Origin: an uncultured Gammaproteobacteria bacterium
GTDB taxonomy: Bacteria; Pseudomonadota; Gammaproteobacteria; Arenicellales; JAANXG01
DNA length: 64,000 nt
Reading direction: 5' to 3'
NCBI GenBank assembly: GCA_947259175.1
Contig: CAMYKW010000027.1
Coordinates: 1-64,000 of the forward strand
The translations under genes and the position numbers were made by a program. This document shows positions 11,906 through 41,951 of the stretch, piece after piece (positions within the stretch are counted from its first letter, which is position 1; each line of letters begins with the position of its first letter). A model generated the notes under the pieces. The model was not told where the DNA came from. It saw nothing but the letters and a program-made list of their open reading frames with translations, and searched no databases.

Positions 11906-12729
11906 CAGTTAGCGCCCGCCAGCGGAAAGAATAGGGTCTCGCCGTTGATCGTGAAGTTCTTGATGATGTCCTGACCTTGTTGGGAGGTAAGCCACTCGAT
12001 GAGGCGCATCGCGCCCCGGTAGTTGATGTCCTCGTAGCGCTGTGGACTTACCGCGATGATGCCGTAGCGGTTATACAGGCGTTGGTCGCCGGCGACCAGT
12101 AAAAGGAGATGCGTCAGGGTGGGCTTGTGGGCTAGCCAGGTGCCGCGATCGGTGAGGGTATAGCCGTCGAGTTCCTCGGCCATCTGCAACACCTTGCCCA
12201 TGCCCTGACCGGCTTCGCGGTACCAGGATCCGCCGGGTGTGATTCCCGCCTGCCGCCACAGCCATCGCTCACGCTTGTGCGTCCCCGAGTCGTCGCCCCG
12301 CGAGACGAAGGGCAGTTGCGCTTTTTGAATGCGGTTCAACGCCGCCAATGCGTCTTTCAGGCCGCGGATTTTCGCGCCGTCGGTATGCGGCCCGATAATG
12401 ACGAAGTCGTTGTACATCACGTCGCGGCGGTTGACGCCGTAGCGGGCGCTCACAAACTCCATCTCGTCCTCATAGGCGTGCACCAGCAGCACATCCGCGT
12501 CGCCGTCGCGCCCCATGCGCAACGCCTTGCCGGTGCCGACGGCGATGACGTGGACCGGGTAGCCGGTTTGCTCTTCGAACGGCGGCAGCAACTGGCGCAA
12601 CAGGCCGGAATTGTCGGTGCTGGTGGTGGTCGCCAGCCTGATCGGACGCTGGGCGGCGGTTGCCGGCGGCGTCGATAGGGACAGCATCAATGTGACGACT
12701 ATTAAGCTTACGCCAATCGCATTGCGCAC
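11905..12729 (-). CDS. tupA: Tungstate-binding periplasmic protein
   Basis: GTG 12729 is chosen because GGAG lies 7 bases upstream and the product then starts with a clean signal peptide (MRNAIGVSLIVVTLMLSLS) of a 274-residue protein; the track start adds 13 unlikely residues. The mature chain begins with the TupA hallmark LATTTSTDNSGLL, where the TTTS loop binds the oxyanion, followed by DADVLLVHA. It would deliver tungstate with high affinity to TupBC. Divergent from moaE with about 60 bp between starts. Confidence 0.9.
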   Translation of the reverse strand: MRNAIGVSLIVVTLMLSLSTPPATAAQRPIRLATTTSTDNSGLLRQLLPPFEEQTGYPVHVIAVGTGKALRMGRDGDADVLLVHAYEDEMEFVSARYGVNRRDVMYNDFVIIGPHTDGAKIRGLKDALAALNRIQKAQLPFVSRGDDSGTHKRERWLWRQAGITPGGSWYREAGQGMGKVLQMAEELDGYTLTDRGTWLAHKPTLTHLLLLVAGDQRLYNRYGIIAVSPQRYEDINYRGAMRLIEWLTSQQGQDIIKNFTINGETLFFPLAGAN

Positions 12730-12790: not shown

Positions 12791-13228
12791 ATGCAAGTCC
12801 AATTGCGCGAGCAAGAATTCGATCCCTGGCAGGAGATCGCCGACCATCAGGTGCAGCACCTCGGCGCGGCCGGCAAATGGGGCGCCACCGCGGTATTCGT
12901 CGGCACCATGCGCGATGATAACGAGGGCGACGCGGTCACCGGCATGACCTTGGAGTATTACCCGGAGATGACCGAACGTCATCTGCGCGCCATTGCCGAA
13001 CAGGCGATGGCGACATGGGACATTATCGATGTGCTCATTCTTCACCGCGTCGGCGACGTCGTGCCGGGTGAGCCGATCGTGTTGGTGACGGTTTGGGCCG
13101 CGCACCGGGCGGCGGCTTATGACGCCAACAGGTTCATCATGGAAGACTTGAAATCCAAGGCGCCGTTCTGGAAAAAAGAACAAACCGCGGCCGGCGCGCG
13201 CTGGGTGGAGCGCAATACCCCGGGTTAG
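12791..13228 (+). CDS. moaE: Molybdopterin synthase catalytic subunit
   Basis: The product (145 residues from ATG 12791, which has AAGGTGG upstream) is MoaE, the large subunit that transfers sulfur from MoaD thiocarboxylate to precursor Z. The active-site lysine segment MEDLKSKAPFWKKE and the HRVGDVVPGE motif are present. It is the only MoaE in the window and must work with one or both MoaD proteins (8009, 45793). A 100-bp inverted-repeat element starts 2 bp after its stop codon. Confidence 0.92.
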   Translation: MQVQLREQEFDPWQEIADHQVQHLGAAGKWGATAVFVGTMRDDNEGDAVTGMTLEYYPEMTERHLRAIAEQAMATWDIIDVLILHRVGDVVPGEPIVLVTVWAAHRAAAYDANRFIMEDLKSKAPFWKKEQTAAGARWVERNTPG

Positions 13229-26803: not shown

Positions 26804-26889
26804 GTGTGGTTAACGCTATAATCAATCATCAGATGACACGCGGCGCAGAATACCAGCAATAATGCATGCTCGCCGCCAGAATAACCCCG

Positions 26890-27669
26890 ATGGCATCAGA
26901 TTTACTGGATTTGTTTCGCGCCCGCAGCGGTGTCGTGTGTATTGTCGGCGCGGGCGGCAAGAAGACCACGCTGTACCGTCTGGCCACCGCGCACAGCGGG
27001 CGGGTCGGGATCACCTCCACGGTACTCACGCCGCCGTTTCGCAACCGGCTGGACGCGCATGTCGTAGTCGCGGACCCGGCCGGGCTGTCCGCGGCGGTTG
27101 CCGGCGCGGCGCAAAAACACGCGCGCGTCGCATTCGCGACCCCGTGTGAAAAACCGGCGCGCTTGGGCGGGGTGGCGCCCGCACAAGTCAGCGAGATCCA
27201 CGTGCGGGCGGGATTTGACCTCAGTCTGGTTAAGGCCGACGGCGCACGCTTGAAATGGATTAAGGCGCCGGGTGCGGACGAACCGGTGATGCCGCCGGCG
27301 ACGACTGTCATCGCGGTGGTATCGGCACGCGCCATGGGCGTGCCGCTGTCGGAAAAAACCACCCACCGGCTGCAGGAGTTCGTCCAAGTTACCGGGGCGC
27401 GTTACGGCGAGCCGATTAGCCCGCAACAGGTGGCGCGATTGTTGACCAGTGAGCAGGGATCATTGAAAGGCGTGGGCGATGCGCGGGTGATCGCGCTGAT
27501 TAACATGGTGGAGACCCCCGCGCAGCACGCCATGGCGCGTGAGGCGGCACAACAAGCCCTGGATCTCAGCGGGCGCATTGAGCGCGTGGTTCTGGCGCGC
27601 ATGATTGATGGAGGGACGCATACCGGAATAAATTCAAAGCTCCGGGGACATGACATCCGATCCGGTTGA
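26890..27669 (+). CDS. yqeC: YqeC-family selenium/molybdenum hydroxylase accessory protein
   Basis: A 259-residue protein from ATG 26890 (the family starts close to its P-loop-like motif; ATG 26866 is an alternative). The motif VVCIVGAGGKKTTLYRLA and LVKADGARLKWIKAP match the putative selenium-dependent hydroxylase accessory family YqeC. A perfect -10 (TATAAT, 26817) lies upstream. The usual partner enzyme, a molybdenum hydroxylase, is not in the window, and the formate dehydrogenase here uses Cys rather than selenocysteine, so the client is unclear. Confidence 0.8.
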   Translation: MASDLLDLFRARSGVVCIVGAGGKKTTLYRLATAHSGRVGITSTVLTPPFRNRLDAHVVVADPAGLSAAVAGAAQKHARVAFATPCEKPARLGGVAPAQVSEIHVRAGFDLSLVKADGARLKWIKAPGADEPVMPPATTVIAVVSARAMGVPLSEKTTHRLQEFVQVTGARYGEPISPQQVARLLTSEQGSLKGVGDARVIALINMVETPAQHAMAREAAQQALDLSGRIERVVLARMIDGGTHTGINSKLRGHDIRSG

Positions 27670-28648: not shown

Positions 28649-30016
28649 ATGCATTCAGCAGGCCCGATGCGGCGGGGCAACCCGCTCCAGGCATCCGTTC
28701 TGATCGTCAGCGAGGACACGGCGTTCGCAACCCGGTTGCGGCATGCGTTACGCGCCTCGTGCGCCCTGGTGGACACCGCGCAAGACCTCCGGCAAGCTGA
28801 TGCGTTGCGCGCACGTTGTCTGTTCGATCTGATCGTGTTGGATGTTTCGCAGCGGCATCGCAGCGCCATCGACTGGCTGGCCCAGACCCGCAGCAACGGA
28901 CGGCGCGGTCCGGCGGTCGTGGTCTCGGAGCACACCGATGCCCGTCTGGTGCTCGATGCGATGCACGCCGGCGCGCAAGACTTCGTTGAGAAATCGTTTG
29001 GCACCCAGGCGCTGGTCGATGCGGTTATTCGCATCCTTCCTCCCAGTCATAAATCCACCGCGCCGGCGCCGGCCAACGTGGACGAGCACATCGAGGCTCT
29101 GGTGGGGCGATCGCCCGCGATTCAGGATCTGCGGGAAAAAATCATACGCCTTGCGCCACGTTCATCCGTGATCTTGATCCAAGGTGAAACGGGAACCGGC
29201 AAAGAACTCGTTGCACAAACCCTGCATGAACTCAGCGACCGCGAAGGAGAGTTTGTGCCCATAAACTGCGGTGCGCTGTCGCCGGATATTATCGAAAGTG
29301 AATTGTTCGGCCATGTGCGCGGGGCGTTCACCAGCGCATTCAATTCCCGTGAAGGACTTTTTCATTACGCGCGCAAAGGGACTTTGTTTCTCGATGAAGT
29401 TTCCGAGATGCCCTGGGAGATGCAGGCCAAGTTACTGCGTGCGCTGGAGGAACGCAGCGTCCGGCCGGTGGGCGCCAACCGTGAAGTCGAGATCGACACC
29501 CGGGTAGTGTGCGCGTCGAATCGCGACCTGTCGGAATCGATGGCGGCGGGAAAGTTTCGCCATGACCTGTATTACCGAATAAACGTGATCGCGCTCTCTA
29601 TACCACCACTGCGTGAGCGGCCTGAGGATTTGCTCGATCTTGCGCCCTACCTGTCCCAGGCAATAGCTGTCGAGATGGGCATAGAACCCTTGAGTTTCAC
29701 TCCGGAGGAGCTCAAGAAATTACAAAGTCACCCCTGGCCGGGGAACGTGCGTGAACTCAGAAACGTGATCGAGCGCGCGATGTTGTTGGGGCACACTCCC
29801 GGCGAGTGCTGTCAAACGAACAGTACGGTTGCAACGGTTACCTGGCCAGCCCATCTTACCCTCGCCGAGGTCGAGAAGAGGCATATCTTGAACATGTTGA
29901 ACGAGGCGGGCGGTAATAAATCCGAGGCGGCCAGGCGGTTGGGGATTTCCCGCAAGACCCTGGAGCGCAAGGTCAAGGCGTGGAATGGCGAACACGACGC
30001 ACAGCGTTCGCGCTGA
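28649..30016 (+). CDS. Sigma-54-dependent response regulator (NtrC family)
   Basis: A 455-residue activator: receiver (about 15-130, Asp in IVLDVSQRH, Lys in FVEKSFG), AAA+ domain (about 150-385) with Walker A GETGTGKE, and a Fis-type HTH (NKSEAARRLGISRKTLERK) at 415-440. The sigma-54 contact loop reads GAFTSA instead of GAFTGA. SD AGAGGAG precedes ATG 28649. No kinase gene is next to it, so it is an orphan regulator. A strong sigma-54 promoter and an upstream palindrome lie in front of the fdh operon about 3 kb away, making that operon its likely target. Confidence 0.9.
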   Translation: MHSAGPMRRGNPLQASVLIVSEDTAFATRLRHALRASCALVDTAQDLRQADALRARCLFDLIVLDVSQRHRSAIDWLAQTRSNGRRGPAVVVSEHTDARLVLDAMHAGAQDFVEKSFGTQALVDAVIRILPPSHKSTAPAPANVDEHIEALVGRSPAIQDLREKIIRLAPRSSVILIQGETGTGKELVAQTLHELSDREGEFVPINCGALSPDIIESELFGHVRGAFTSAFNSREGLFHYARKGTLFLDEVSEMPWEMQAKLLRALEERSVRPVGANREVEIDTRVVCASNRDLSESMAAGKFRHDLYYRINVIALSIPPLRERPEDLLDLAPYLSQAIAVEMGIEPLSFTPEELKKLQSHPWPGNVRELRNVIERAMLLGHTPGECCQTNSTVATVTWPAHLTLAEVEKRHILNMLNEAGGNKSEAARRLGISRKTLERKVKAWNGEHDAQRSR

Positions 30017-30070: not shown

Positions 30071-30277
30071 ATGAACGAAGACAAGTTTAATTTAGAAATG
30101 CGTTCGTTTCTCAAACGGGTTGGGATTACCTCCCAGCGTGAAATCGAAAAGGTGGTGCGTGATGCGCTCGACAGCGGCGCGTTACAGGGCAACGAGCAGA
30201 TCGCGGTAAAAGTAACGCTGGAAATCATGGCTCCCGAATCGAGTAAAACCATCGAGGGTACGATCTCGCTGGAGTAA
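30071..30277 (+). CDS. DUF6494 family protein
   Basis: A 68-residue protein (MNEDKFNLEMRSFLKRVGIT, then SQREIEKVVRDAL) with a good SD (AGGTGGAAAGG). I recognise the pattern of DUF6494, a small family of unknown function that occurs in formate dehydrogenase gene neighbourhoods. It is 54 bp behind the sigma-54 activator and probably cotranscribed. Predicted soluble, helix then beta hairpins. Confidence 0.78.
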   Translation: MNEDKFNLEMRSFLKRVGITSQREIEKVVRDALDSGALQGNEQIAVKVTLEIMAPESSKTIEGTISLE

Positions 30278-30338: not shown

Positions 30339-30803
30339 ATGCGTACCTACCATGCGCAAACAACGGTGCCATGGACACAGGCTCAGGTCTACGCGCTCAT
30401 CGCCGATGTCGCACGCTATCCCGACTTCCTCCCGGGTTGGCGCAAGGTGTCGGTGATTCGCGCGAGCGAGAATCGAGCCGAGGTATCGCAGGAAATCGGC
30501 ATCGGTCCGGTGTCGCTGAAATTCATCTCCGCCGCGGTATTCTGTCCCCTCGACAAGATCACTATCCGTTCACGAGCGGCTCCGTTTTCGCACTTGCACC
30601 TGTGCTGGACCTTAGCCGCGGCGGAACCCGGTTGCCGCGTGACCCTGCTTATCGAAGCGGCTTTTCGATCCCGGCTGCTGGCGGGATTGCACGGCAGGAT
30701 TCTGGAGTCGCTTGCGCAGCGCATGTTGCGCGCGTTCGAGCGGCGGGCGTTTGCGCTGTACGGCAGCGCGGACCCAGCGGATGTAAAATCGCCGTCAGGC
30801 TGA
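30339..30803 (+). CDS. SRPBCC/RatA-like START-fold protein
   Basis: The product (154 residues from ATG 30339) resembles the Coq10/RatA branch of the SRPBCC superfamily: VYALIADVARYPDFLPGW near the N-terminus and a helix (LAQRMLRAFERRAFALYG) at the end. Coq10-like members bind ubiquinone; RatA-like members act on ribosomes. No neighbour tells which. Its 3' end overlaps the convergent regulator gene by 9 bp. Confidence 0.75.
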   Translation: MRTYHAQTTVPWTQAQVYALIADVARYPDFLPGWRKVSVIRASENRAEVSQEIGIGPVSLKFISAAVFCPLDKITIRSRAAPFSHLHLCWTLAAAEPGCRVTLLIEAAFRSRLLAGLHGRILESLAQRMLRAFERRAFALYGSADPADVKSPSG

Positions 30804-31748
30804 CCAAACGATCTGACCGCAGTTGTCGAACCTATATCCGCCGAACACCGCCGCTAATCGCCGGCATTCCGGGCCGTTGAGTTGTTCGATCAGTTTTTGA
30901 AACAGCGTTCTGAAAAACACCCCGCGATCCAGCGCGAGGTCATAGGCTTCCCAACCCACCGGGATGAAATCCAGGCCGAATTCGTTTGCCAGGCTACGGG
31001 GGCCGGGGCCTACGTCCGCTTCTTCGCGGTTCAGGTGTGACGCTACATCTCGTTCCGAGAGTACGCGCGCGGTTACCCGCAGCCGCGTGGGATCGACCTT
31101 GTGTCGGCTGAATAACTCACGCAAATAACGCTGGGCGCCGGCGCTGTCATGACGCATGACCCAACGCGCCTGACTTTCAAATAAGCGGCCGATGTCCCCG
31201 GCAGCTTCGATCAGCCCGGGTGACACTACCAACCCCTGTTCGCGTTCGAACGCACGTACCAGCACCCAGTTCTTATACGGCGGGTATTGCCTCACCAACG
31301 CGGCGTGCCGCCGGGTGCTCTCCTGTGCCGGTCCCCAGCGCACACCGCAGACATCCGCACGTTGCCGCGCGAGGAGCGACAAGCCGAGTTCAGTGCCGGT
31401 ATTCGTATAGCTGACCAGCGCGTGTCCCTGCATCTCGTTGACGATGTGAGTGATTGCGTGCTGAATCAAACTGTCGTCACTACCGGTCACCACCAGGCGG
31501 TCGGTTAACAGCCCGCCGTGACTCGATTCCATCAGCCAACGATCCACCAGCTTGCGCGGAAACAACCACTTGCCGGTAACCTTGGTGCCCGGGATTTTTC
31601 CCTCGCTCACCAGCGCGTACACCTTCTTGGTGTTGATGTGCAGGTAGTCGGCGACTTCCTTGACGCTCATGAACTGTCTCAGACTGACGTCGGCTCCGGG
31701 GCGTATGGGTCGCACTTTGCTGGAAGATCGAAGGGCATCGCGATCCAT
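30795..31748 (-). CDS. Excisionase-type HTH regulator with PBP-like domain
   Basis: A 317-residue protein with an N-terminal MerR/excisionase-type helix-turn-helix (MSVKEVADYLHINTKKVYAL) at 27-75 and a C-terminal periplasmic-binding-protein-like domain (about 90-300). This combination is found in regulators near molybdoenzyme genes, where the PBP part is thought to sense molybdate, tungstate or a cofactor form. It lies 3 bp after fdhD in the same direction, divergent from the fdh operon, and could bind the palindrome in the shared intergenic region. Confidence 0.82.
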   Translation of the reverse strand: MDRDALRSSSKVRPIRPGADVSLRQFMSVKEVADYLHINTKKVYALVSEGKIPGTKVTGKWLFPRKLVDRWLMESSHGGLLTDRLVVTGSDDSLIQHAITHIVNEMQGHALVSYTNTGTELGLSLLARQRADVCGVRWGPAQESTRRHAALVRQYPPYKNWVLVRAFEREQGLVVSPGLIEAAGDIGRLFESQARWVMRHDSAGAQRYLRELFSRHKVDPTRLRVTARVLSERDVASHLNREEADVGPGPRSLANEFGLDFIPVGWEAYDLALDRGVFFRTLFQKLIEQLNGPECRRLAAVFGGYRFDNCGQIVWSA

Positions 31749-31751
31749 GCT

Positions 31752-32636
31752 TCAAGTACCGGTTTTTTCATGCGGCACGCCGCGCAGGCTGCGCGGATTG
31801 TGCTCGGGTTTGGCGTCGAACTGAACTTGTCGATGGCCATGATAGACCAGGAAATGCCTGCCTTTGGCGCGTGCAATCATCACCACGCCCAGATCGCGGG
31901 CCAACTCCAGGCCCATGTGAGTAATGCCGGAGCGCGACAACAGTACCGGAATTCCCATGTGGGCAGCCTTCATCACGATCTCGGAGGTCAGCCTGCCGGT
32001 GGTGTAGAAAATCTTGTCGCCGCCATCGATCTCGTCGAGCCACATACGGCCGGATATGGCATCCGCGGCGTTGTGGCGGCCGACATCCTCGACGAACATT
32101 AACACCCGGGTGTCGTGACACAAAGCGCAACCGTGGACCGCGCCGGCTTTTTTATAGAGTTCGTTATACGCGCTGATCGATTTCAACAGCCCGTATATCG
32201 TCGATTGACAAATCATGACTTCCGGCAGACGCACGTCGTACAACTTGTCCAGGGTGCAGCTGAACACCGTTCCCTGGGCGCAACCCGTAGTTACGGTGCG
32301 CTGCGATGACTTAGCCTCCCAATCGACGATCCCCCGGCCACTGGCGGTCGCTACGTCAACGCGTTCACTTTCCCAGTCCACGCTAACCGCAGTGATTTCC
32401 GTAATGTTTTCGATCAATCGTTGGTTACGCAGGTAACCCAGGGCGAGTTCTTCCGGTTGCGTGCCCAGGGTCATCAGCGTAACGACTTCCTGCCCGTCGA
32501 CCTTGAGGGTGAGTGGAAATTCGCCGGCGACGCTGAGTTGTCGCCGCTCGCCATGCTCGTCGATGGCGAATACCTCTTGGGTCGGCGTGAGACCGGCGTC
32601 GGTCATCTTCGGTCGGTGCGTGGCTGATGTGGACAT
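31752..32636 (-). CDS. fdhD: Formate dehydrogenase sulfurtransferase FdhD
   Basis: The 294-residue protein matches FdhD, which passes sulfur from a cysteine desulfurase to the bis-MGD cofactor of formate dehydrogenase. The catalytic Cys pair is CALC (near 175), followed by VEDVGRHNAADAI and TTGRLTSEIVMKAA. It is the first gene of a two-gene operon with the HTH-PBP regulator and is divergent from the fdh structural genes, which it serves. Confidence 0.92.
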   Translation of the reverse strand: MSTSATHRPKMTDAGLTPTQEVFAIDEHGERRQLSVAGEFPLTLKVDGQEVVTLMTLGTQPEELALGYLRNQRLIENITEITAVSVDWESERVDVATASGRGIVDWEAKSSQRTVTTGCAQGTVFSCTLDKLYDVRLPEVMICQSTIYGLLKSISAYNELYKKAGAVHGCALCHDTRVLMFVEDVGRHNAADAISGRMWLDEIDGGDKIFYTTGRLTSEIVMKAAHMGIPVLLSRSGITHMGLELARDLGVVMIARAKGRHFLVYHGHRQVQFDAKPEHNPRSLRGVPHEKTGT

Positions 32637-32797
32637 GCCGTGGATTTAAATTAAGAAGTTGGCGTAGAACCGTGCAATTTTCGTTCCTAACCCCAGCAGT
32701 ATCGCGAAGCTTGAGCAATAGGATGTAAACAAGCAGTCAGCGCGAGCGCAGCGCCGGGAATCTACGCCGCAAGAGGTGCCCCAGCCGGCAGCACAAT

Positions 32798-32814
32798 CGG
32801 GTCAAATTGACCCG
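32798..32814. promoter_or_regulatory. 17-bp palindrome, probable regulator site
   Basis: CGGGTCAAATTGACCCG has two perfect 8-bp arms around one base. Its place about 75-90 bp upstream of the -24 element fits an enhancer (UAS) for the sigma-54 activator at 28649, or an operator for the HTH-PBP regulator at 30795. Confidence 0.6.
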
Positions 32815-32886
32815 ACATGGTTAAAAGTGTCGTACCCGAAGTGACGCAAGCGGCGCTGTCGCGAGGAAATCCGCCGCTTGTCGGCC

Positions 32887-32902
32887 TGGTACGGTAGTTG
32901 CC
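32887..32902 (+). promoter_or_regulatory. Sigma-54 (-24/-12) promoter of the fdh operon
   Basis: TGGTACGGTAGTTGCC matches the consensus TGGCACG-N4-TTGCW closely, with GG and GC separated by exactly 10 bases. Transcription would start near 32913, 50 bp before the DUF3305 gene. Confidence 0.8.
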
Positions 32903-32962: not shown

Positions 32963-33520
32963 ATGCCCCAGGATACGTTGCCATTTCAACCCGAGGCGCA
33001 GCCGAAAGGTGGGTACCGGTTTCCGGTATCGGTCATCGTCGAGCGCCGGGAAATCAAACGAGACCGCTGGTCGTTTCCCAGTTGGGAGGCGACCGGAGTG
33101 GTGGCCGGAGAGCGTTTAGGCAGCGTTGCGGCCAAAACACCGATCCACAGCGACGCGCAACGTCAGCACTTTCTCTGGAGCGGCCTGACCTTGGAGTTCT
33201 TCCGCGATGAGACCGAGAGTTATTGGCACAATTTACAGGGCAGTCGGCCATCGCTGTTCGTAATTTGCCGCGAGGAGCATGAAGACGATGATGACTCACT
33301 GGAACCCTACCTCGTCACCGCCGATCCCCATGAGGCGGACGCCTATCTGGAAACCGAGGGCACGGTTTTCGCCGTGCCTATTCCGCCGGATCTGTATCAA
33401 TGGTTGGAGCGATACGTGATGACGTACTACCGGCCCGGGGAACAAAAGAAACGAAAACGCAAGCGCTGGCAGGAGGGCGAGCACCGTGATCAAGCACCCG
33501 CGCGTGGACGACGGCACTGA
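32963..33520 (+). CDS. DUF3305 family protein (fdh operon)
   Basis: A 185-residue soluble protein matching DUF3305 (FPVSVIVERREIKRDRWSFP), a family almost always found in front of formate dehydrogenase genes with DUF3306. Function is unknown; by context an assembly or maturation factor. The C-terminus is very basic (KKRKRKRWQ), suggesting contact with nucleic acid, membrane or an acidic partner such as the DUF3306 protein. Overlaps the next gene by 35 bp. Confidence 0.85.
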   Translation: MPQDTLPFQPEAQPKGGYRFPVSVIVERREIKRDRWSFPSWEATGVVAGERLGSVAAKTPIHSDAQRQHFLWSGLTLEFFRDETESYWHNLQGSRPSLFVICREEHEDDDDSLEPYLVTADPHEADAYLETEGTVFAVPIPPDLYQWLERYVMTYYRPGEQKKRKRKRWQEGEHRDQAPARGRRH

Positions 33521-34091
33521 CAACCACGAAGATTTTCGGCAACGTTGGTCGCGCCGCAAGGCGGCGGCCGGCGGATCGCACGAACCCGAGTCCGTGCCGG
33601 AACCACAAGCCGCGGACCCGGCGCCGTCGCCGGAGCCACCGGCAAAGACTGACGCCGATATGCCCGCGGTTGAGTCCATCGACGAATCGACCGACATGAG
33701 CGACTTCTTTTCTCCGCAGGTGAGTGACAAGCTGCGGCAGGTGGCATTGCGAAAACTGTTTCATTTGCCGCAGTTCAACGTCGTTGATGGACTCGACGAT
33801 TATGATGACGACTTCACGGCCTTTGAGGCGCTGGGGGAAATCGTGACCGCGGACATGCGTCATCGGATGGAGCTGGAACAAGACGAACGGGCTGCTTCCG
33901 AGGCCGCGGACGTATCCGGGGAGAATGCCCTCGAGGACGAAGGGCGAACCGCGGCCGGGGAATCCGGGGAACAGGACCAGGCGCGCGAGCAAGCGGCAGA
34001 AGAAGAGGCGCGCGAAGCTATTGCGGATGCACATGATCCAGATGCACACGATTCATCGGTAGAGAACGATGACGAACACCGAGACGCCTGA
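33486..34091 (+). CDS. DUF3306 family protein (fdh operon)
   Basis: GTG 33486, with AGGAGGG upstream, gives 201 residues. The N-terminus FRQRWSRRKAAA and the middle MSDFFSPQVSDKLRQVALRKLF are DUF3306 signatures; the C-terminal third is very acidic and low in complexity (many Glu, Asp, Ala). It overlaps both neighbours (35 bp and 23 bp), so it is translated in a coupled way. Probably works with DUF3305 in FDH biogenesis; the basic tail of one and the acidic tail of the other could interact, which is inference. Confidence 0.85.
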   Translation: MIKHPRVDDGTDNHEDFRQRWSRRKAAAGGSHEPESVPEPQAADPAPSPEPPAKTDADMPAVESIDESTDMSDFFSPQVSDKLRQVALRKLFHLPQFNVVDGLDDYDDDFTAFEALGEIVTADMRHRMELEQDERAASEAADVSGENALEDEGRTAAGESGEQDQAREQAAEEEAREAIADAHDPDAHDSSVENDDEHRDA

Positions 34092-35802
34092 CAGCAACCC
34101 GGACGCAGCGGCACTGCCGCTGCCGGCGCACACCGTGGACGGCGCGGCGCGGCGTGAGGCGTTACAAGAGCACGCGCAGCGCCCCCGTTTCCAGACCACC
34201 GCGGTTGCCTACGTGTCCAGGGGTGTCGCGTTGGTGATCGGTGAGCGGGAACCGGCGCTACAGGCGGCCGCTCAACTGAAACAAGGCGGTCTCGACACGG
34301 CGGTGCTGATCGAAGCATCCGATGACGACGAGCGACTGTCGGTAAACATGACCGACGGCGGCATAGTCGCGGCACGCGGTGTAATCACCGAGTGTAGCGG
34401 TCATCTCGGTCGTTTTGTGGTGCGCGTCGCGGGCAAGCAGGGGGCGATTAATCTGGCTCGCGAACTACAATTCAAACGCGATGATTTCGATCTGGTGCTC
34501 GACCTGAGCCGGGTACCGAACATTGATGTGCAGATTCCGCCGCCGGGATATTACGCACCATCCGGTGGGGCGGCACTGAGGCGCGCGTTGGACGCGCTGC
34601 CGGAGATGGTCGGCGAATACGAGAAACCCAAATATTTTTCATACGATCCGGACATCTGTGCGCACGGCGAACGCGGCTTGGCAGGTTGCCGCCGCTGTAT
34701 CGACGCCTGTCCCACCGATGCCATTCACTCGCTCGGAGAGCGGATCGAAGTCGATGCGCATTTATGTCAAGGCGGCGGCAGTTGTGCGACCGCCTGTCCG
34801 ACCGGGGCGATTCGTTACGTATATCCTCCGGTGAGCCATCTGTTGGACGGATTACGCGGTCTGCTGCGCGGTTACCGCGAGCGGGATGGTGAGCGCCCGG
34901 TGGTGTTGTTCTACAGTGAATGGGGGCGCGAGCAACTGACACGCTGGAGCGACCGTTTGCCCGAATCGGTATTGCCAGTCGAAATTGAAGATGTGGGCTC
35001 CGTCGGCCTCGAGGTGTGGCTGGCGGCGCTCGCGTACGGCGCACACCAGGTTTGGCTGCTGATCACCGAGGGTATGCCGCCGGCGATCGGCGGTGCGCTC
35101 GATGAGCAGTTGCGGGTGGCGCGGGAGCTGCTCGCCGGCATGGGATTCGAACCCGGCCGGATCGTGATGATCACCTCAGCGGACGGGATTCCGGCGCAAG
35201 TCTATGAGCAGGGGTTGGCGGCATCGGCCCGCTTCGCCGGCCAGGACGACAAGCGCACCAATATCCGTCTGGCGATGGATCACCTCTATGCCCACGCCGC
35301 CACACAAAAGAAATCAGTCACGCTCAGTGCCCCGGCGCCGTTTGGCGAGATCAAGGTCAGTCGCGAGGCCTGCACCCTGTGCATGGGTTGCGTCGCCGTG
35401 TGCCCGGCGGGTGCGTTATCGGACGGTGAAGACATGCCGCGGTTGTTGTTTATCGAGGCCAATTGTGTGCAGTGCGGTCTGTGCGCCAACGCGTGCCCGG
35501 AGTCGGCGATCAAGCTCGCGCCGCGCTTTGCTTACGACGCGGAGCTGCGCGGCAAACCCCGGCTGATGCATGAGGAAGAGCCGTTCAACTGCATCAACTG
35601 CGGCAAACCGTTCGCCACCAAGAGCCTGATGGCGCGGATGCGGGAAAAACTCGCCGGCCACTGGATGTACCAGGATGCATCCCAGCGGCGGCGCCTGGAG
35701 ATGTGCGAGGACTGCCGCATATCGGACTTGTATCTAAAAGACGGTGGCATCGAGGTGTACGACAAACCCGCCAACCGGGATGTGTCGGGTGGGTCAGAGT
35801 GA
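34069..35802 (+). CDS. Polyferredoxin of the fdh operon
   Basis: The 577-residue protein holds four ferredoxin-type cluster motifs: GCRRCIDACP and CQGGGSCATACP (near 205-245), CTLCMGCVAVCP and CVQCGLCANACP (near 440-480), plus C-terminal Cys pairs CINCGKPF and CEDCR that may bind zinc or another cluster. The stretch between (about 270-420) resembles a hydrogenase-maturation or CoB-CoM reductase delta-like fold. No membrane helix or signal. It belongs to a family annotated as 4Fe-4S ferredoxin in formate dehydrogenase operons; it may pass electrons or help load clusters. Confidence 0.82.
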   Translation: MTNTETPDSNPDAAALPLPAHTVDGAARREALQEHAQRPRFQTTAVAYVSRGVALVIGEREPALQAAAQLKQGGLDTAVLIEASDDDERLSVNMTDGGIVAARGVITECSGHLGRFVVRVAGKQGAINLARELQFKRDDFDLVLDLSRVPNIDVQIPPPGYYAPSGGAALRRALDALPEMVGEYEKPKYFSYDPDICAHGERGLAGCRRCIDACPTDAIHSLGERIEVDAHLCQGGGSCATACPTGAIRYVYPPVSHLLDGLRGLLRGYRERDGERPVVLFYSEWGREQLTRWSDRLPESVLPVEIEDVGSVGLEVWLAALAYGAHQVWLLITEGMPPAIGGALDEQLRVARELLAGMGFEPGRIVMITSADGIPAQVYEQGLAASARFAGQDDKRTNIRLAMDHLYAHAATQKKSVTLSAPAPFGEIKVSREACTLCMGCVAVCPAGALSDGEDMPRLLFIEANCVQCGLCANACPESAIKLAPRFAYDAELRGKPRLMHEEEPFNCINCGKPFATKSLMARMREKLAGHWMYQDASQRRRLEMCEDCRISDLYLKDGGIEVYDKPANRDVSGGSE

Positions 35803-35865
35803 CTGAGAGGCCGCCCATTTTCTCGTAATTACCGTTAAAGACCTGCTTTTTACCGGAGAATTAGT

Positions 35866-35958
35866 ATGACTTTTGACCGTTATTGCTCCGAATTTTCCCT
35901 GTATTCGTGGCATGAACCGTGCAAGCCCCAAGGGACAGGGACACACGGCGATGAGTGA
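35866..35958 (+). CDS. Possible 30-residue small ORF upstream of the TorD-like gene
   Basis: ATG 35866 has a good SD (CCGGAG) and opens MTFDRYCSEFSLYSWHEPC, ending at a TGA that overlaps the start of the TorD-like gene (ATG 35951, sequence GATGAGTGA). It could be a real tiny protein or a leader peptide whose translation opens the TorD start. It is too short for the ORF track; no family recognised. Confidence 0.35.
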   Translation: MTFDRYCSEFSLYSWHEPCKPQGTGTHGDE

Positions 35959-36571
35959 GGAGCACGCAGCCGTGGACGCGGTGCCTGGCGCGGTGGACGA
36001 TGCCGATGCCCTGCGCGCCGGCATTTACCGCCTGCTGGCGACGCTGCTGGCGGCGCCGCCGAGCCAGGAGCTGCTGGATACGCTCAAGGTGGTGGAGGCG
36101 GGGGAAGACGATGCCCCGCTGGCCCCCGCCTGGCGGATGCTGGCGTTGGCGGCGCAACGGACGTCGGCGGCGGCGGCGGACGATGAGTACCACGCGCTGT
36201 TTGTCGGGATTACCCGCGGCGAGATGATGCCCTACGGCTCATGGTACTTGACCGGCTTCCTGATGGAGCGGCCGCTGGCGGAGTTGCGACAGGATTTGAA
36301 GGAGTTGGGCTACGCGCGCGATCCGGATGTCAAGGAGCCGGAGGATCATGCGGCGGCATTGTGCGAAACGATGAGCCTGCTCATCGATGACCAGGACACC
36401 GGATTCGGCCGGCGCAAGAAGTTTTTCGATGACCACATCGAGCCATGGATGATGCGGTTCTTTCAGGACCTGCAGTCGGCGGAGGCGGCGGAGTTTTACG
36501 GCGCCGTGGGGCTGCTGGGTGAAAAGTTTTTACAGGTCGACAAGCGCTATCTTGGGATGACGCCCCACTGA
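35951..36571 (+). CDS. TorD/DmsD-family molybdoenzyme chaperone
   Basis: From ATG 35951 (MSEEHAAVDAV) the protein has 206 residues, the usual TorD length; the track start adds 26 residues. The all-helical family signature includes DDEYHALFVGITRGEMMPYGSWY and the late EFYGAVGLLGEKFLQVD. TorD-type chaperones bind the TAT signal of a molybdoenzyme until its cofactor is in place. Here the client would be FdhA, encoded two genes downstream. Confidence 0.87.
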   Translation: MSEEHAAVDAVPGAVDDADALRAGIYRLLATLLAAPPSQELLDTLKVVEAGEDDAPLAPAWRMLALAAQRTSAAAADDEYHALFVGITRGEMMPYGSWYLTGFLMERPLAELRQDLKELGYARDPDVKEPEDHAAALCETMSLLIDDQDTGFGRRKKFFDDHIEPWMMRFFQDLQSAEAAEFYGAVGLLGEKFLQVDKRYLGMTPH

Positions 36572-36875: not shown

Positions 36876-36931
36876 GCAGCAGCGTCCGACTCGAATCACC
36901 AACTAAGCGTGGTTTTAGAGGAGATCAAGTG

Positions 36932-39811
36932 ATGAAGTTGATCAAAAAACGAGGCGCCAACGCCTCCACCGCAGCGCCCGGTCTGGGTGAGGCGATCGAT
37001 CGACGGACGTTTCTGCGTCGATCAGGGGTCGCCCTGGGTGGCGCCGCCGTATCCGGTGCGTTACCGGTCACCATGATGCGCAAGGCGCACGCGAAGGGCG
37101 CCAGCCCGAAAGCGGGGATCGCAACCGAGATGCGACGTTCCATATGCACCCACTGTTCCGTCGGATGCGGCGTCATCGCCGAGGTGCAGAACGGGGTGTG
37201 GACGGGCCAGGAGCCCGACTTCGAGTCCCCCTTCAATCTCGGCTCCCACTGCGCCAAGGGCGCATCGGTGCGCGAGCACGGGATCGGCGAGCACCGATTG
37301 AAACATCCGATGAAATTGGTTGGCGGCAAGTGGAAGAAGCTTTCCTGGGACGAGGCCATCAACGAAATCGGCGACAAGCTGATGCAAATCCGCAAGGAAT
37401 CAGGTCCCGACTCTGTGGCGTGGATGGGGTCAGCCAAGCACAGCAACGAGCAGGCCTACCTGTTCCGCAAGATGGCGGCGATGTGGGGCACCAACAACGT
37501 CGATCACCAGGCGCGCATCTGCCACTCCACCACCGTGGCCGGCGTGGCGAACACCTGGGGCTACGGTGCAATGACCAATTCCTACAACGACATGCACAAC
37601 TGCAAGGCGATGATCTTCATCGGCAGTAACGCCGCCGAGGCCCATCCGGTGGCCATGCAGCACATCCTGCGCGCCAAGGAAAACGGCGCCAAGATGATCG
37701 TGTGCGATCCGCGGTTTACACGCACCGCCGCGCATGCGGACCACTTCGTACGATTGCGCCCGGGCACCGACGTCGCGTTGGTATGGGGCATGTTGTGGCA
37801 CATCTTCGAGAACGGCTGGGAAGACAAGGAATACATCAGTCAGCGCGTTTGGGGCCTGGACCGGGTCCGCGAAGAGGTCAAGAAATGGACGCCCGAGGAG
37901 ACCGAGCGGGTGACCGGGGCACCGCCGGATGTGGTCAAGCAGGCGGCGCAGATCATGGCCGAGAACCGGCCCGGCACCATTGTCTGGTGCATGGGCGGCA
38001 CGCAACACACCTCGGGCAACAACAACACGCGCTCATACTGCGTGTTGCAGTTGGCGCTGGGTAATATCGGTAAGTCCGGCGGCGGCGCCAATATCTTCCG
38101 CGGCCACGACAACGTACAAGGCGCGACCGATCTGTGCGTGCTGTCGCATTCGCTGCCCGGGTACTACGGCCTGTCGGCGGGGTCGTGGAAGCACTGGTCG
38201 CGGGTGTGGGACCTCGACTATGAATGGGTGGCGTCCCGCTTCGATCAGGACAAGGTCGAGGGCGACAAGGGCAAGCCGGTGAGTCCGATGAATTACAAGG
38301 GTATCCCGGTTTCGCGCTGGATCGATGGGGTGTTGGAAGACCCCAAGAATATGGGCCAGAAGGACCGCATCCGCGCACTGTTCATGTGGGGTCACGCGGT
38401 CAACAGCCAGACCCGCGGACCGGAGATGAAAAAGGCCATGGAGATGTTGGATATGCTGGTGATCGTAGACCCGTATCCGACCCACGCGGCGGTGATGAAC
38501 GACCGCAAGGACGGCACCTACCTGCTGCCCGCGTCGACCCAGTTCGAGACCTACGGCTCGGTGACCGCGTCCAACCGCTCCATCCAGTGGCGCGACAAGG
38601 TGATCGACCCGGTGTGGGAATCGTTGCCCGACCAGACGATCATGTACAAGCTGGCCAAAAAGCTGGGTTTTGCTGATCAGATGTTCAAGAACATCAAGGT
38701 CAACAGCGATGAACCCCTGGTGGAGGATGTCACCCGCGAGTTCAACAAGGGCATGTGGACCATCGGTTACACCGGCCAGAGTCCCGAGCGCCTGAAACTG
38801 CACGCGGAGAATCGCAAGACCTTTAATACCACCACCTTGAAGGCCGAGGGCGGCCCGGCGGACGGCGACTACTACGGCATGCCGTGGCCGTGCTGGGGCA
38901 CCGCCGAGATGAAGCATCCCGGCACGCCGATCCTGTACGATCCGAGCACGCCGGTGGCGGAGGGTGGTTTGACCTTCCGCGCCCGGTTCGGTGTCGAGCA
39001 CGACGGCGAGAACCTGCTGGCCGAAGGCTCCTACAGCAAGGGATCGGAGATCAAAGACGGCTATCCCGAGTTCAAGGCCGATATGCTCAAGCAGCTCGGT
39101 TGGTGGGACGATCTCACCCCCGAGGAGAAACAGCTCGCCGAAGGCAAGAACTGGAAGACCGACCTGTCCGGCGGCATCCAGCGCGTCGCCATCAAGCATG
39201 GTTGCGCGCCGTTCGGCAACGCCAAGGCGCGCACCTTCGTGTGGACGTTTCCGGATCCGATACCGATCCATCGCGAGCCTTTGTATACGCCGCGGCGCGA
39301 TCTGGTGGCGGACTATCCGACCTACGCCGACCGCAAGCGGTTCTACCGGTTGCCCACCCGCTACGAATCCATTCAGTCCCAGGACTTTTCCAAGGACTAT
39401 CCGATCATCTGGACCAGTGGGCGCCTGGTGGAATACGAGGGCGGCGGCGAGGAACAAAGGTCCAATCCGTGGCTGGCGGAACTGCAACAGGACATGTTCG
39501 TGGAGGTCAACCCCACCGACGCCAACAACCTCGGTATCCGTGACGGCCAAATGGTGTGGATGGACAGTCCGGAAAAAGCCAAGATCAAGGTCAAGGCTCA
39601 GGTAACGCGGCGGGTGGCGCCGGGGGTGGTATTCACCCCATTCCACTTCGGCGGTTGGTTCCAGGGCGAAGACCTGGTTGCCAAGTATCCGCAGGGCACC
39701 GCGCCGCTGGTTCGCGGTGAAGCATGTAACACCGCGATGACCTACGGCTATGACTCCGTGACACAGATGCAGGAAACGAAAGTGTCCCTGTGTCGAATCC
39801 GGCCGGCGTAA
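36932..39811 (+). CDS. fdhA: Formate dehydrogenase catalytic subunit, Cys type
   Basis: The 959-residue alpha subunit starts with a TAT signal (RRTFLRRSGVALGG), binds one Fe4S4 cluster (CTHCSVGC and the later Cys of HCAKGA) and carries the bis-MGD domains. The metal-ligand position reads ARICHSTTVAGVA, i.e. cysteine (near 196) in place of selenocysteine, followed by the catalytic His. Domain IV with the cofactor-closing region ends the chain. It oxidises formate to CO2 in the periplasm, or the reverse. ATG 36932 (GAGGAG upstream) is preferred over the GTG one codon earlier. Molybdenum or tungsten cannot be told from sequence; a TupABC importer suggests tungsten is possible. Confidence 0.94.
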   Translation: MKLIKKRGANASTAAPGLGEAIDRRTFLRRSGVALGGAAVSGALPVTMMRKAHAKGASPKAGIATEMRRSICTHCSVGCGVIAEVQNGVWTGQEPDFESPFNLGSHCAKGASVREHGIGEHRLKHPMKLVGGKWKKLSWDEAINEIGDKLMQIRKESGPDSVAWMGSAKHSNEQAYLFRKMAAMWGTNNVDHQARICHSTTVAGVANTWGYGAMTNSYNDMHNCKAMIFIGSNAAEAHPVAMQHILRAKENGAKMIVCDPRFTRTAAHADHFVRLRPGTDVALVWGMLWHIFENGWEDKEYISQRVWGLDRVREEVKKWTPEETERVTGAPPDVVKQAAQIMAENRPGTIVWCMGGTQHTSGNNNTRSYCVLQLALGNIGKSGGGANIFRGHDNVQGATDLCVLSHSLPGYYGLSAGSWKHWSRVWDLDYEWVASRFDQDKVEGDKGKPVSPMNYKGIPVSRWIDGVLEDPKNMGQKDRIRALFMWGHAVNSQTRGPEMKKAMEMLDMLVIVDPYPTHAAVMNDRKDGTYLLPASTQFETYGSVTASNRSIQWRDKVIDPVWESLPDQTIMYKLAKKLGFADQMFKNIKVNSDEPLVEDVTREFNKGMWTIGYTGQSPERLKLHAENRKTFNTTTLKAEGGPADGDYYGMPWPCWGTAEMKHPGTPILYDPSTPVAEGGLTFRARFGVEHDGENLLAEGSYSKGSEIKDGYPEFKADMLKQLGWWDDLTPEEKQLAEGKNWKTDLSGGIQRVAIKHGCAPFGNAKARTFVWTFPDPIPIHREPLYTPRRDLVADYPTYADRKRFYRLPTRYESIQSQDFSKDYPIIWTSGRLVEYEGGGEEQRSNPWLAELQQDMFVEVNPTDANNLGIRDGQMVWMDSPEKAKIKVKAQVTRRVAPGVVFTPFHFGGWFQGEDLVAKYPQGTAPLVRGEACNTAMTYGYDSVTQMQETKVSLCRIRPA

Positions 39812-39823
39812 GGAGAAAAAACC

Positions 39824-40414
39824 ATGGCACGTATGAAATTTCTTTGTGACGCTGAGCGGTGCATCGAGTGTAATTCCTGTGTTACCGCTTGTAAGAATGA
39901 GCATGAAGTTCCGTGGGGCGTGAACCGTCGCAGGGTGGTAACCCTGAACGACGGCGTACCGGGCGAGAAATCGATCTCGGTGGCTTGTATGCACTGCACC
40001 GATGCCCCCTGCGCAGCGGTGTGTCCGGTGGACTGTTTCTACACCACCGACGACGGCATCGTGCTTCATGACAAGGATCTGTGTATCGGCTGTGGCTACT
40101 GCTTCTACGCCTGTCCGTTCGGCGCACCGCAGTATCCGCAGCAGGCGGCATTCGGGGTCCGCGGCAAGATGGATAAATGCACATTCTGTGCGGGCGGTCC
40201 ACTGCAGGACAACTCCAATGTCGAGTATGAAAAGTATGGCCGCAACCGCATCGCCGAAGGCAAGCTGCCGTTGTGCGCCGAAATGTGCTCGACAAAGGCG
40301 TTGCTTGCAGGAGACGGCGACATGATCGCGGACATCTACCGGCAACGGGTATTGAAACGCGGAGGCAGGCCCCAGACCTGGGGTTGGGAATCCGCCTACG
40401 GCACGACAGGATAG
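39824..40414 (+). CDS. fdhB: Formate dehydrogenase iron-sulfur subunit
   Basis: A 196-residue four-cluster ferredoxin subunit: CIECNSCVTACK, CMHCTDAPCAAVCP, CIGCGYCFYACP and CTFC with a later CAEMC. It starts 12 bp after fdhA and wires the catalytic subunit to the membrane cytochrome b. It has no signal of its own and would be exported by hitchhiking on FdhA. There is no C-terminal membrane anchor like that of E. coli FdnH. Confidence 0.92.
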   Translation: MARMKFLCDAERCIECNSCVTACKNEHEVPWGVNRRRVVTLNDGVPGEKSISVACMHCTDAPCAAVCPVDCFYTTDDGIVLHDKDLCIGCGYCFYACPFGAPQYPQQAAFGVRGKMDKCTFCAGGPLQDNSNVEYEKYGRNRIAEGKLPLCAEMCSTKALLAGDGDMIADIYRQRVLKRGGRPQTWGWESAYGTTG

Positions 40415-40892: not shown

Positions 40893-41951
40893 ATGAATAC
40901 AAGACTTGAATCAAAAAAACGTCATGCAAGAATCATGCTCTGGAGTGCGGTGATTATCGTATTCGGTGCGATGTTCCTGCCGTTGGCTAGCTATGTGTTT
41001 ACGGATACGGTGTCTGCGCGGGCCGCCGCCGCCCAGGATGCCAATCCGCGGGCCAACTACTGGCGTGCGGTGCGTGAGGGTAACCAGGGCTACACGTCAT
41101 CTTCAGGCCCCTACACCACCAATGTCCTGATCCAGAACGGGGGGCAGAACTGGCGGCACTTGCGGAACGGGCCGGTCGCCAACTTCCTTCCGTGGATACT
41201 CGCGGTGATGGTGCTGGTGATCGCGTTGTATCACCTGATTAAGGGCACCCAGCGAATTGAAGGGCCGATTTCAGGAAAGACGGTGCCACGTTGGACGCTT
41301 TTTGAACGTGTCCTCCACTGGTACACGGCCTCCTTGTTCATTGTGCTGGCGATCACCGGTCTGAGCCTGCTGTTCGGACGCGCGGTGCTGATCCCGATCC
41401 TGGGTCCGTGGGGATTCGGCGCGTGGGCGGATTTTTCAATCATGCTGCATAATTATCTGGGGCCATTTTTCGTCGTCGGCGTGCTGCTCGAGATTCTTGT
41501 TTGGGCGCGTATGAATATCCCCAAAGAAGCCGATCGGCAATGGTTCAAGAAGGCCGGAGGTCTGTTCAGTGGTGAGCATGTCCCGGCGGGACGCTCGAAC
41601 GGCGGGGAAAAAGTGTGGTTCTGGATGGTGGCGATTTTTGGGATCGTAGTTTCGGTGACCGGGTTGATTCTCGATTTTCCAAATTTTGAACAGTCCCGAG
41701 AAACCATGCAGCTCATGAACATCATCCACGCGATTTCTTCGGTAATCTGGGTGGCCATAGCTCTCGGTCACATGTACATGGGAACCCTGGGCAACGAGGG
41801 GGTGCTGCAGGGGATGACCCAGGGCCGCGTGAGCGTGGAGTGGGCCAAACAGCACCACGATCTGTGGTATGAGGAAGTCAAGGATCAAGCGAGCAGCGGG
41901 GACACGGAGTCCGCGGCTGAACCGGGCAGCGCCGCCAAACAACCGAGTTAG
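40893..41951 (+). CDS. fdhC: Formate dehydrogenase cytochrome b556 subunit
   Basis: A 352-residue inner-membrane cytochrome b with an N-terminal membrane helix (15-35), a periplasmic loop and four further helices. Histidines in FERVLHWYTASLF, IMLHNYLGPFF and VAIALGHMYMG are in the positions of the heme b ligands of FdnI/FdoI-type gamma subunits. It passes electrons from FdhB to the quinone pool. It is longer than E. coli FdnI because of the N-terminal extension. A strong terminator ends the operon. Confidence 0.92.
   Translation: MNTRLESKKRHARIMLWSAVIIVFGAMFLPLASYVFTDTVSARAAAAQDANPRANYWRAVREGNQGYTSSSGPYTTNVLIQNGGQNWRHLRNGPVANFLPWILAVMVLVIALYHLIKGTQRIEGPISGKTVPRWTLFERVLHWYTASLFIVLAITGLSLLFGRAVLIPILGPWGFGAWADFSIMLHNYLGPFFVVGVLLEILVWARMNIPKEADRQWFKKAGGLFSGEHVPAGRSNGGEKVWFWMVAIFGIVVSVTGLILDFPNFEQSRETMQLMNIIHAISSVIWVAIALGHMYMGTLGNEGVLQGMTQGRVSVEWAKQHHDLWYEEVKDQASSGDTESAAEPGSAAKQPS

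Follow-up and report, generated by a model that had tools for sequence, protein, structure and literature searches.

In Escherichia coli, formate dehydrogenase is placed under sigma-54 control by FhlA, which senses formate with GAF domains and controls fdhF and hyc via upstream activator sites. At norVW, the NorR sites take the form GTCA-N3-TGAC and lie upstream of a -24/-12 promoter. In Vibrio parahaemolyticus, loss of rpoN lowers expression of VP1510-VP1515, a cluster homologous to the one considered here, by 3-5 log2 units. No shift of the VP1510 promoter by purified RpoN was seen in vitro, and the authors regard the effect as indirect; they cite RpoN ChIP-seq for the V. cholerae counterpart (PMC9817140). 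Since an RpoN-dependent Vibrio cluster has been published, this kind of system is already known; what appear to be new here are the assignment of an activator, its binding motif, the two-way layout of the control region, and a kinase-less form of the activator carrying the loop GAFTSA. In the open-access literature, we found no description of a module joining fdh, sigma-54, and tungstate, and no paper assigning the activator, the dyad, or the tungstate link.

The window, that is, the whole 64-kb stretch of DNA analyzed, carries such a cluster on its plus strand. The operon begins with a DUF3305 protein gene (32963-33520, PF11749) and continues with genes for a DUF3306 protein (33486-34091, PF11748), a poly-4Fe-4S protein (34069-35802, Pfam Fer4 families), a TorD/NarJ-family chaperone (35951-36571, PF02613; the ATG at 35951 was read from the sequence), and the formate dehydrogenase large subunit (36929-39811), iron-sulfur subunit (39824-40414, Pfam Fer4 families), and cytochrome b subunit (40893-41951, PF01292). 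The large subunit was assigned by Pfam and by its best NCBIfam match, TIGR01591, which at 498 bits is under the 666-bit cut-off of that model. On the minus strand, fdhD, encoding the formate dehydrogenase accessory sulfurtransferase (31752-32636, PF02634, E 3e-71), forms an operon with a gene for an HTH_17-PBP_like protein (30795-31748, Pfam; hereafter HTH-PBP). Two further genes on the plus strand encode a sigma-54 enhancer-binding protein (EBP; 28649-30016), referred to as the activator, and a small DUF6494 protein (30071-30277, PF20104). DUF6494 is present in many related clusters, and in most families of the order it accompanies the fdh cluster even where the activator and HTH-PBP are missing. 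The gene at 26866-27669, near the activator, is one which we take to be a probable YqeC-type selenium-dependent hydroxylase accessory gene; in several relatives, a gene like it accompanies the fdh cluster.

The original prediction had placed a near-consensus -24/-12 box with exact GG-N10-GC spacing, together with an enhancer-like palindrome, in front of the fdh operon. The box, TGGTACGGTAGTTGCC (32887-32902, plus strand), is as stated: it reads TGGTACG-GTAG-TTGCC, with GG and GC exactly ten bases apart, and departs from TGGYRYG-N4-TTGCW only in its last base, where C replaces W. The distance from the end of its GC to the ATG at 32963 is about 61 bp. Matches of this type with up to two mismatches occur in the window at chance level (62 observed vs 65.8 expected from shuffles), so that the sequence by itself lends the box no weight. 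It was accepted as real because it is conserved in the genus. When the upstream regions of six congeneric genomes were aligned (374 columns, 86 of them invariant), the box formed the most invariant 16 columns (16/16) of the 330-bp upstream region, above the flanking DNA. This comparison of orthologous upstream regions, which had been proposed as a check, came out in favor of the box, which also recurs across relatives. The genome has one copy of rpoN.

Unlike the box, the palindrome carries weight from sequence alone, because only 0.01 palindromes of this kind (up to three mismatches) are expected by chance. It spans 17 bp (32798-32814) within a 19-mer (32797-32815) whose 9-bp arms flank one base. 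Its center lies about 82 bp upstream of the GG of the -24 element, at roughly -107 relative to the inferred start, and the 4.18-Mb genome contains a single copy of the exact 15-bp core. The predicted palindrome is thus present at an enhancer-type position, but it is not kept as a perfect palindrome in the genus, where 8 of its 17 columns are invariant and a looser dyad persists instead. By its matrix score and unique core, we designated this sequence, CGGGTCAAATTGACCCG, as the upstream putative activator site A (no strand assigned). A second, weaker putative site, B (TGGTTAAAAGTGTCGTA, 32818-32834, likewise without strand), was recognized by matrix score and genus alignment, its center being 20 bp from that of site A. 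Site B scores 5.4 bits in the window vs 10.1-16.4 bits in the congeners L111, L114, and L115, and 11 of its 17 columns are invariant within the genus.

A divergent -24/-12 box with GG-N10-GC spacing, AGGAACGAAAATTGCA (32673-32688, minus strand), faces fdhD on the other side of the intergenic region; GGAAC-N7-TTGCA is conserved there in six congeners, with 12 of 16 columns invariant, and the box recurs in relatives. A probable internal sigma-54 box, TGGCATGAACCGTGCA (35908-35923, plus strand), precedes torD. It is conserved in the genus and found in the same place in the family members L117 and L120, which have no fdh-facing box and retain the torD box. A possible activator site for the torD promoter, TGGGTCAGAGTGACTGA (35790-35806, no strand assigned), is weak at 5.1 bits and overlaps the end of the Fe-S protein gene; its TGGGTCA is conserved in six congeners, and a dyad with a box is located between the Fe-S gene and torD in many relatives. 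At 35867-35950, the genus also conserves an ATG-initiated short ORF of about 30 codons that overlaps the torD box; this stretch may reflect either a leader peptide or conservation of the promoter. Site B, the fdhD-facing box, and the torD box were absent from the original prediction, as were the HTH-PBP gene and the degenerate receiver and GAFTSA loop of the activator.

When 84,980 species were scanned with the HTH-PBP protein, 80 loci were returned, nearly all from Gammaproteobacteria and most with this fdh cluster. Among the 36 non-redundant loci with fdhD divergent from DUF3305, a box toward fdh was present in 30 (0.59 expected from Markov resamples), a box toward fdhD in 28 (1.10 expected), and both in 26 (0.03 expected); the loci were gathered by homology to one protein, which limits their independence, and box and dyad scores come from simple matrices. 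The genomes are also unevenly sampled, and those of related organisms do not count as independent observations. Where HTH-PBP is divergent from DUF3305, an HTH-PBP-facing box was found in 13 of 19 loci and an fdh-facing box in 3 of 19. Expectation maximization on the stretches between the two boxes, seeded with the window palindrome, yielded the motif TGGGWCAWWWTGWCCCA, a 17-bp dyad with the consensus TGGGWCA-N3-TGWCCCA whose sites are usually paired about 20-33 bp apart. A matrix trained on 33 loci outside the genus reached 14.6 bits, with a dyad match in 32 of the 33, compared to 5.9-8.1 bits for shuffled sets retrained in the same way. By this genus-excluded matrix, site A outscores every other site in the 64 kb (19.2 bits, compared to 13.0 bits for the runner-up). 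In many relatives, the same dyad is found with a sigma-54 box before torD and also between tupA and the activator gene, as expected of an activator regulon. The dyad is located upstream of the -24 element, is usually tandem, and is common to promoters that would be co-regulated; comparison across relatives thus argues for the enhancer role that had been suggested for the palindrome.

A search of the whole genome for the dyad (up to two mismatches) gave 59 sites per strand vs 31 for the reversed control, with only two non-fdh sites at one mismatch, so a wider dyad regulon in this genome cannot be claimed. In L181 and L155 (Sedimenticola), about 6 kb separates DUF3305 from HTH-PBP, and in L155 this interval contains additional dyad-plus-box pairs, which suggests that the regulon may be larger there. 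In L038, TGGTATGGTAGTTGCC lies 352 bp before DUF3305, upstream of DUF6494-DUF3305; this genome (G060) has neither the activator nor the HTH-PBP gene.

The protein encoded at 28649-30016 has the architecture REC, sigma-54 AAA+, and Fis HTH (Pfam, alignment, and tree), with intact Walker A, Walker B, and Fis-type HTH, and is 84-89% identical in four congeners and 66% in a fifth. Orthologs were found in five other genomes of the order. In four of these, the activator gene and DUF3305 share a contig; in the remaining one (G023), the activator adjoins fdhBC and fdhD on a separate contig. The activator was linked to the fdh cluster in every genome of the order in which an ortholog was found. In the phylogenetic tree, it falls into an fdh-linked clade with 100/100 support, apart from its paralogs, and L218, a more distant class match, is placed outside this clade. 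Across the order, the fdh box is present in 8 of 10 EBP-positive and 0 of 37 EBP-negative genomes (Fisher p 1.4e-7), the eight box-bearing genomes representing only three lineages. Two family members with an intact activator, G034 and G038, have no box before DUF3305; G038 retains the dyad. The genome also encodes other sigma-54 activators. From comparative evidence of this type, the predicted assignment of the 28649 activator to fdh is supported by the linkage to the cluster and the co-occurrence of box and activator in the order, and sigma-54 control of the operon by the conservation of the boxes in the genus and across relatives. V. cholerae VC1522 may be an ortholog of the activator.

In relatives, a cache-domain histidine kinase gene lies next to the activator gene, as does a divergent gene for a TupA-type tungstate transporter. 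There tupA is divergent from the activator gene and has its own dyad and box, which is not so here: a tupA-like tungstate-binding protein gene (11920-12708; NCBIfam NF041772, below cut-off) lies 16 kb from the activator. It was rejected as a fourth target, as the DNA upstream of it is coding (read as MoaE) and a -24/-12-like match at 12872-12887 is not conserved.

The original prediction described the activator as lacking a kinase, and this was borne out genome-wide, no full-length partner kinase being found in the genome. A full-length kinase adjoins the activator in five genomes of the order; these kinases share 50-52% identity with the L163 kinase, which has single-cache, HisKA, and HATPase_c domains. 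A full-length ortholog was absent from all six genomes of the genus, in which the best matches were partial and covered the catalytic part only. The receiver of the activator in these six genomes reads VSED, VTED, or VTGD where the orthologs have VDDE, so that the acidic pair is lost and the phospho-Asp and Lys are kept. Similarly, the loop contacting sigma-54 is GAFTSA in 6/6 genus genomes; the remaining orthologs of the order carry GAFTGA or GSFTGA. The protein thus departs from the GAFTGA loop of enhancer-binding proteins and lacks both the full receiver signature of a phosphorylated response regulator and the cognate kinase of a two-component pair; in the activator tree, the genus sits on a long stem branch (1.07). 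NorR with a serine at G266, the matching GAFTGA position, is active without signal and partly regulated, indicating that a change at this position can be tolerated (PMC2941729). We found no paper on GAFTSA in the open-access literature. From these features, we infer that the activator in the genus no longer needs phosphorylation and would be constitutive, controlled by its amount, or responsive to another input; GAFTSA might instead impair the contact with sigma-54. G163 provides another activator of the clade that has no kinase beside it (L255, 8965-10305); the receiver sequence LIVEQD in the same G163 gene (L202) hints at more than one orphaning event.

The HTH-PBP protein is probably a one-component oxyanion-responsive regulator. 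It resembles the PBP portion of the PRK14498 molybdopterin biosynthesis proteins, with a score under the cut-off of that model; a PDB search with it gave no match, and its gene adjoins fdhD in relatives. The signals of HTH-PBP and of the relatives' kinase are suggested only by their neighbors (TupA, MoaA, fdhD, and MobA) and by similarity at the family level. It is conceivable, though doubtful, that receiver decay and GAFTSA have made the activator of the genus phosphorylation-independent and that control of fdh has passed to HTH-PBP as a molybdate/tungstate-type sensor.

Taken together, the intergenic region between fdhD and DUF3305-fdh is best read, with a probability of roughly 0.8, as a two-way sigma-54 control region served by the 28649 activator on tandem dyads. 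Sequence comparisons support the boxes and dyads, the conservation of both, and the link to the activator clade; binding and activation by this protein are predicted from them. According to this model, sigma-54 RNA polymerase would occupy the -24/-12 box on each side, toward fdhD and toward DUF3305-fdh. The hexameric activator, or its ortholog in relatives, would bind the tandem dyads, strongly at A and weakly at B, and open both divergent promoters by ATP hydrolysis; torD-fdhABC is probably served by the additional box. The activator of most relatives is a response regulator with a cache-domain histidine kinase as its neighbor. In the genus, it would work without phosphorylation, and HTH-PBP, made together with fdhD, is the best candidate for an input.

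Three other readings were weighed against this one. That the fdh box and palindrome are chance matches would agree with the shuffle-level frequency of -24/-12-like matches in the window, but it is hardly credible: both elements are conserved in the genus and are found again in dozens of loci, which refutes this reading for the box and dyad as a class. The palindrome could alternatively be the operator of the HTH-PBP regulator, with the sigma-54 box served by another activator. HTH-PBP does co-occur with the activator and the fdh cluster in the order, G038 and G036 (the latter also with HTH-PBP) retain the palindrome without a -24/-12 box before DUF3305, and G037 and G039 have neither HTH-PBP nor the palindrome. 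However, G169, a 99% complete genome, has the dyad and both boxes with no HTH-PBP gene, which favors the activator as the binder and weakens the case for HTH-PBP; moreover, the same dyad accompanies sigma-54 boxes at the tupA and torD promoters, and L126 and L128 have no dyad before HTH-PBP and one before the activator gene. We consider this operator reading improbable.

Slightly less improbable, yet still unlikely, is that the orphan activator is defective in the genus and that fdh is driven by another sigma-54 activator or by a sigma-70 promoter. The degenerate receiver, GAFTSA, the long stem branch, and the presence of other activators in the genome would all fit such a loss. On the other hand, the Walker motifs and HTH are intact, the gene has been kept at 66-89% identity in five congeners, the -24/-12 box stays invariant in the genus, and NorR with the corresponding serine still activates (PMC2941729). 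The activator-driven two-way control region remains the preferred reading.

If correct, it would provide a widespread, little-studied formate dehydrogenase cluster with a concrete regulator and a searchable binding motif and would tie the cluster to the sensor kinase and tungstate uptake genes of relatives. The genus would offer a natural test of how a sigma-54 activator changes its control after kinase loss, and the loop position substituted here is the one whose change releases NorR from its sensor domain; a phosphorylation-independent GAFTSA activator would be the natural counterpart of the NorR G266S laboratory mutant.

Compared with ZraR, NtrC, and AtoC, the 28649 activator shares the REC-AAA-Fis architecture and, in its relatives, the adjacent histidine kinase, whereas the protein itself is far below each family's cut-off and is without kinase and acidic pair. 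It differs from FhlA in having a receiver domain and no GAF domain before AAA+, and the FhlA model scores below those of NtrC and ZraR. The dyad resembles the GTCA-N3-TGAC form of the NorR sites; NorR, however, contains a GAF domain, has three enhancer sites, and functions in NO reduction. The Vibrio cluster VP1510-VP1515 corresponds in its rpoN dependence and differs in that we found neither an activator nor an enhancer site assigned to it (PMC9817140), and its gene order is similar to that of the locus described here: Fe-S protein, chaperone, small protein, large subunit, Fe-S subunit, and cytochrome b.
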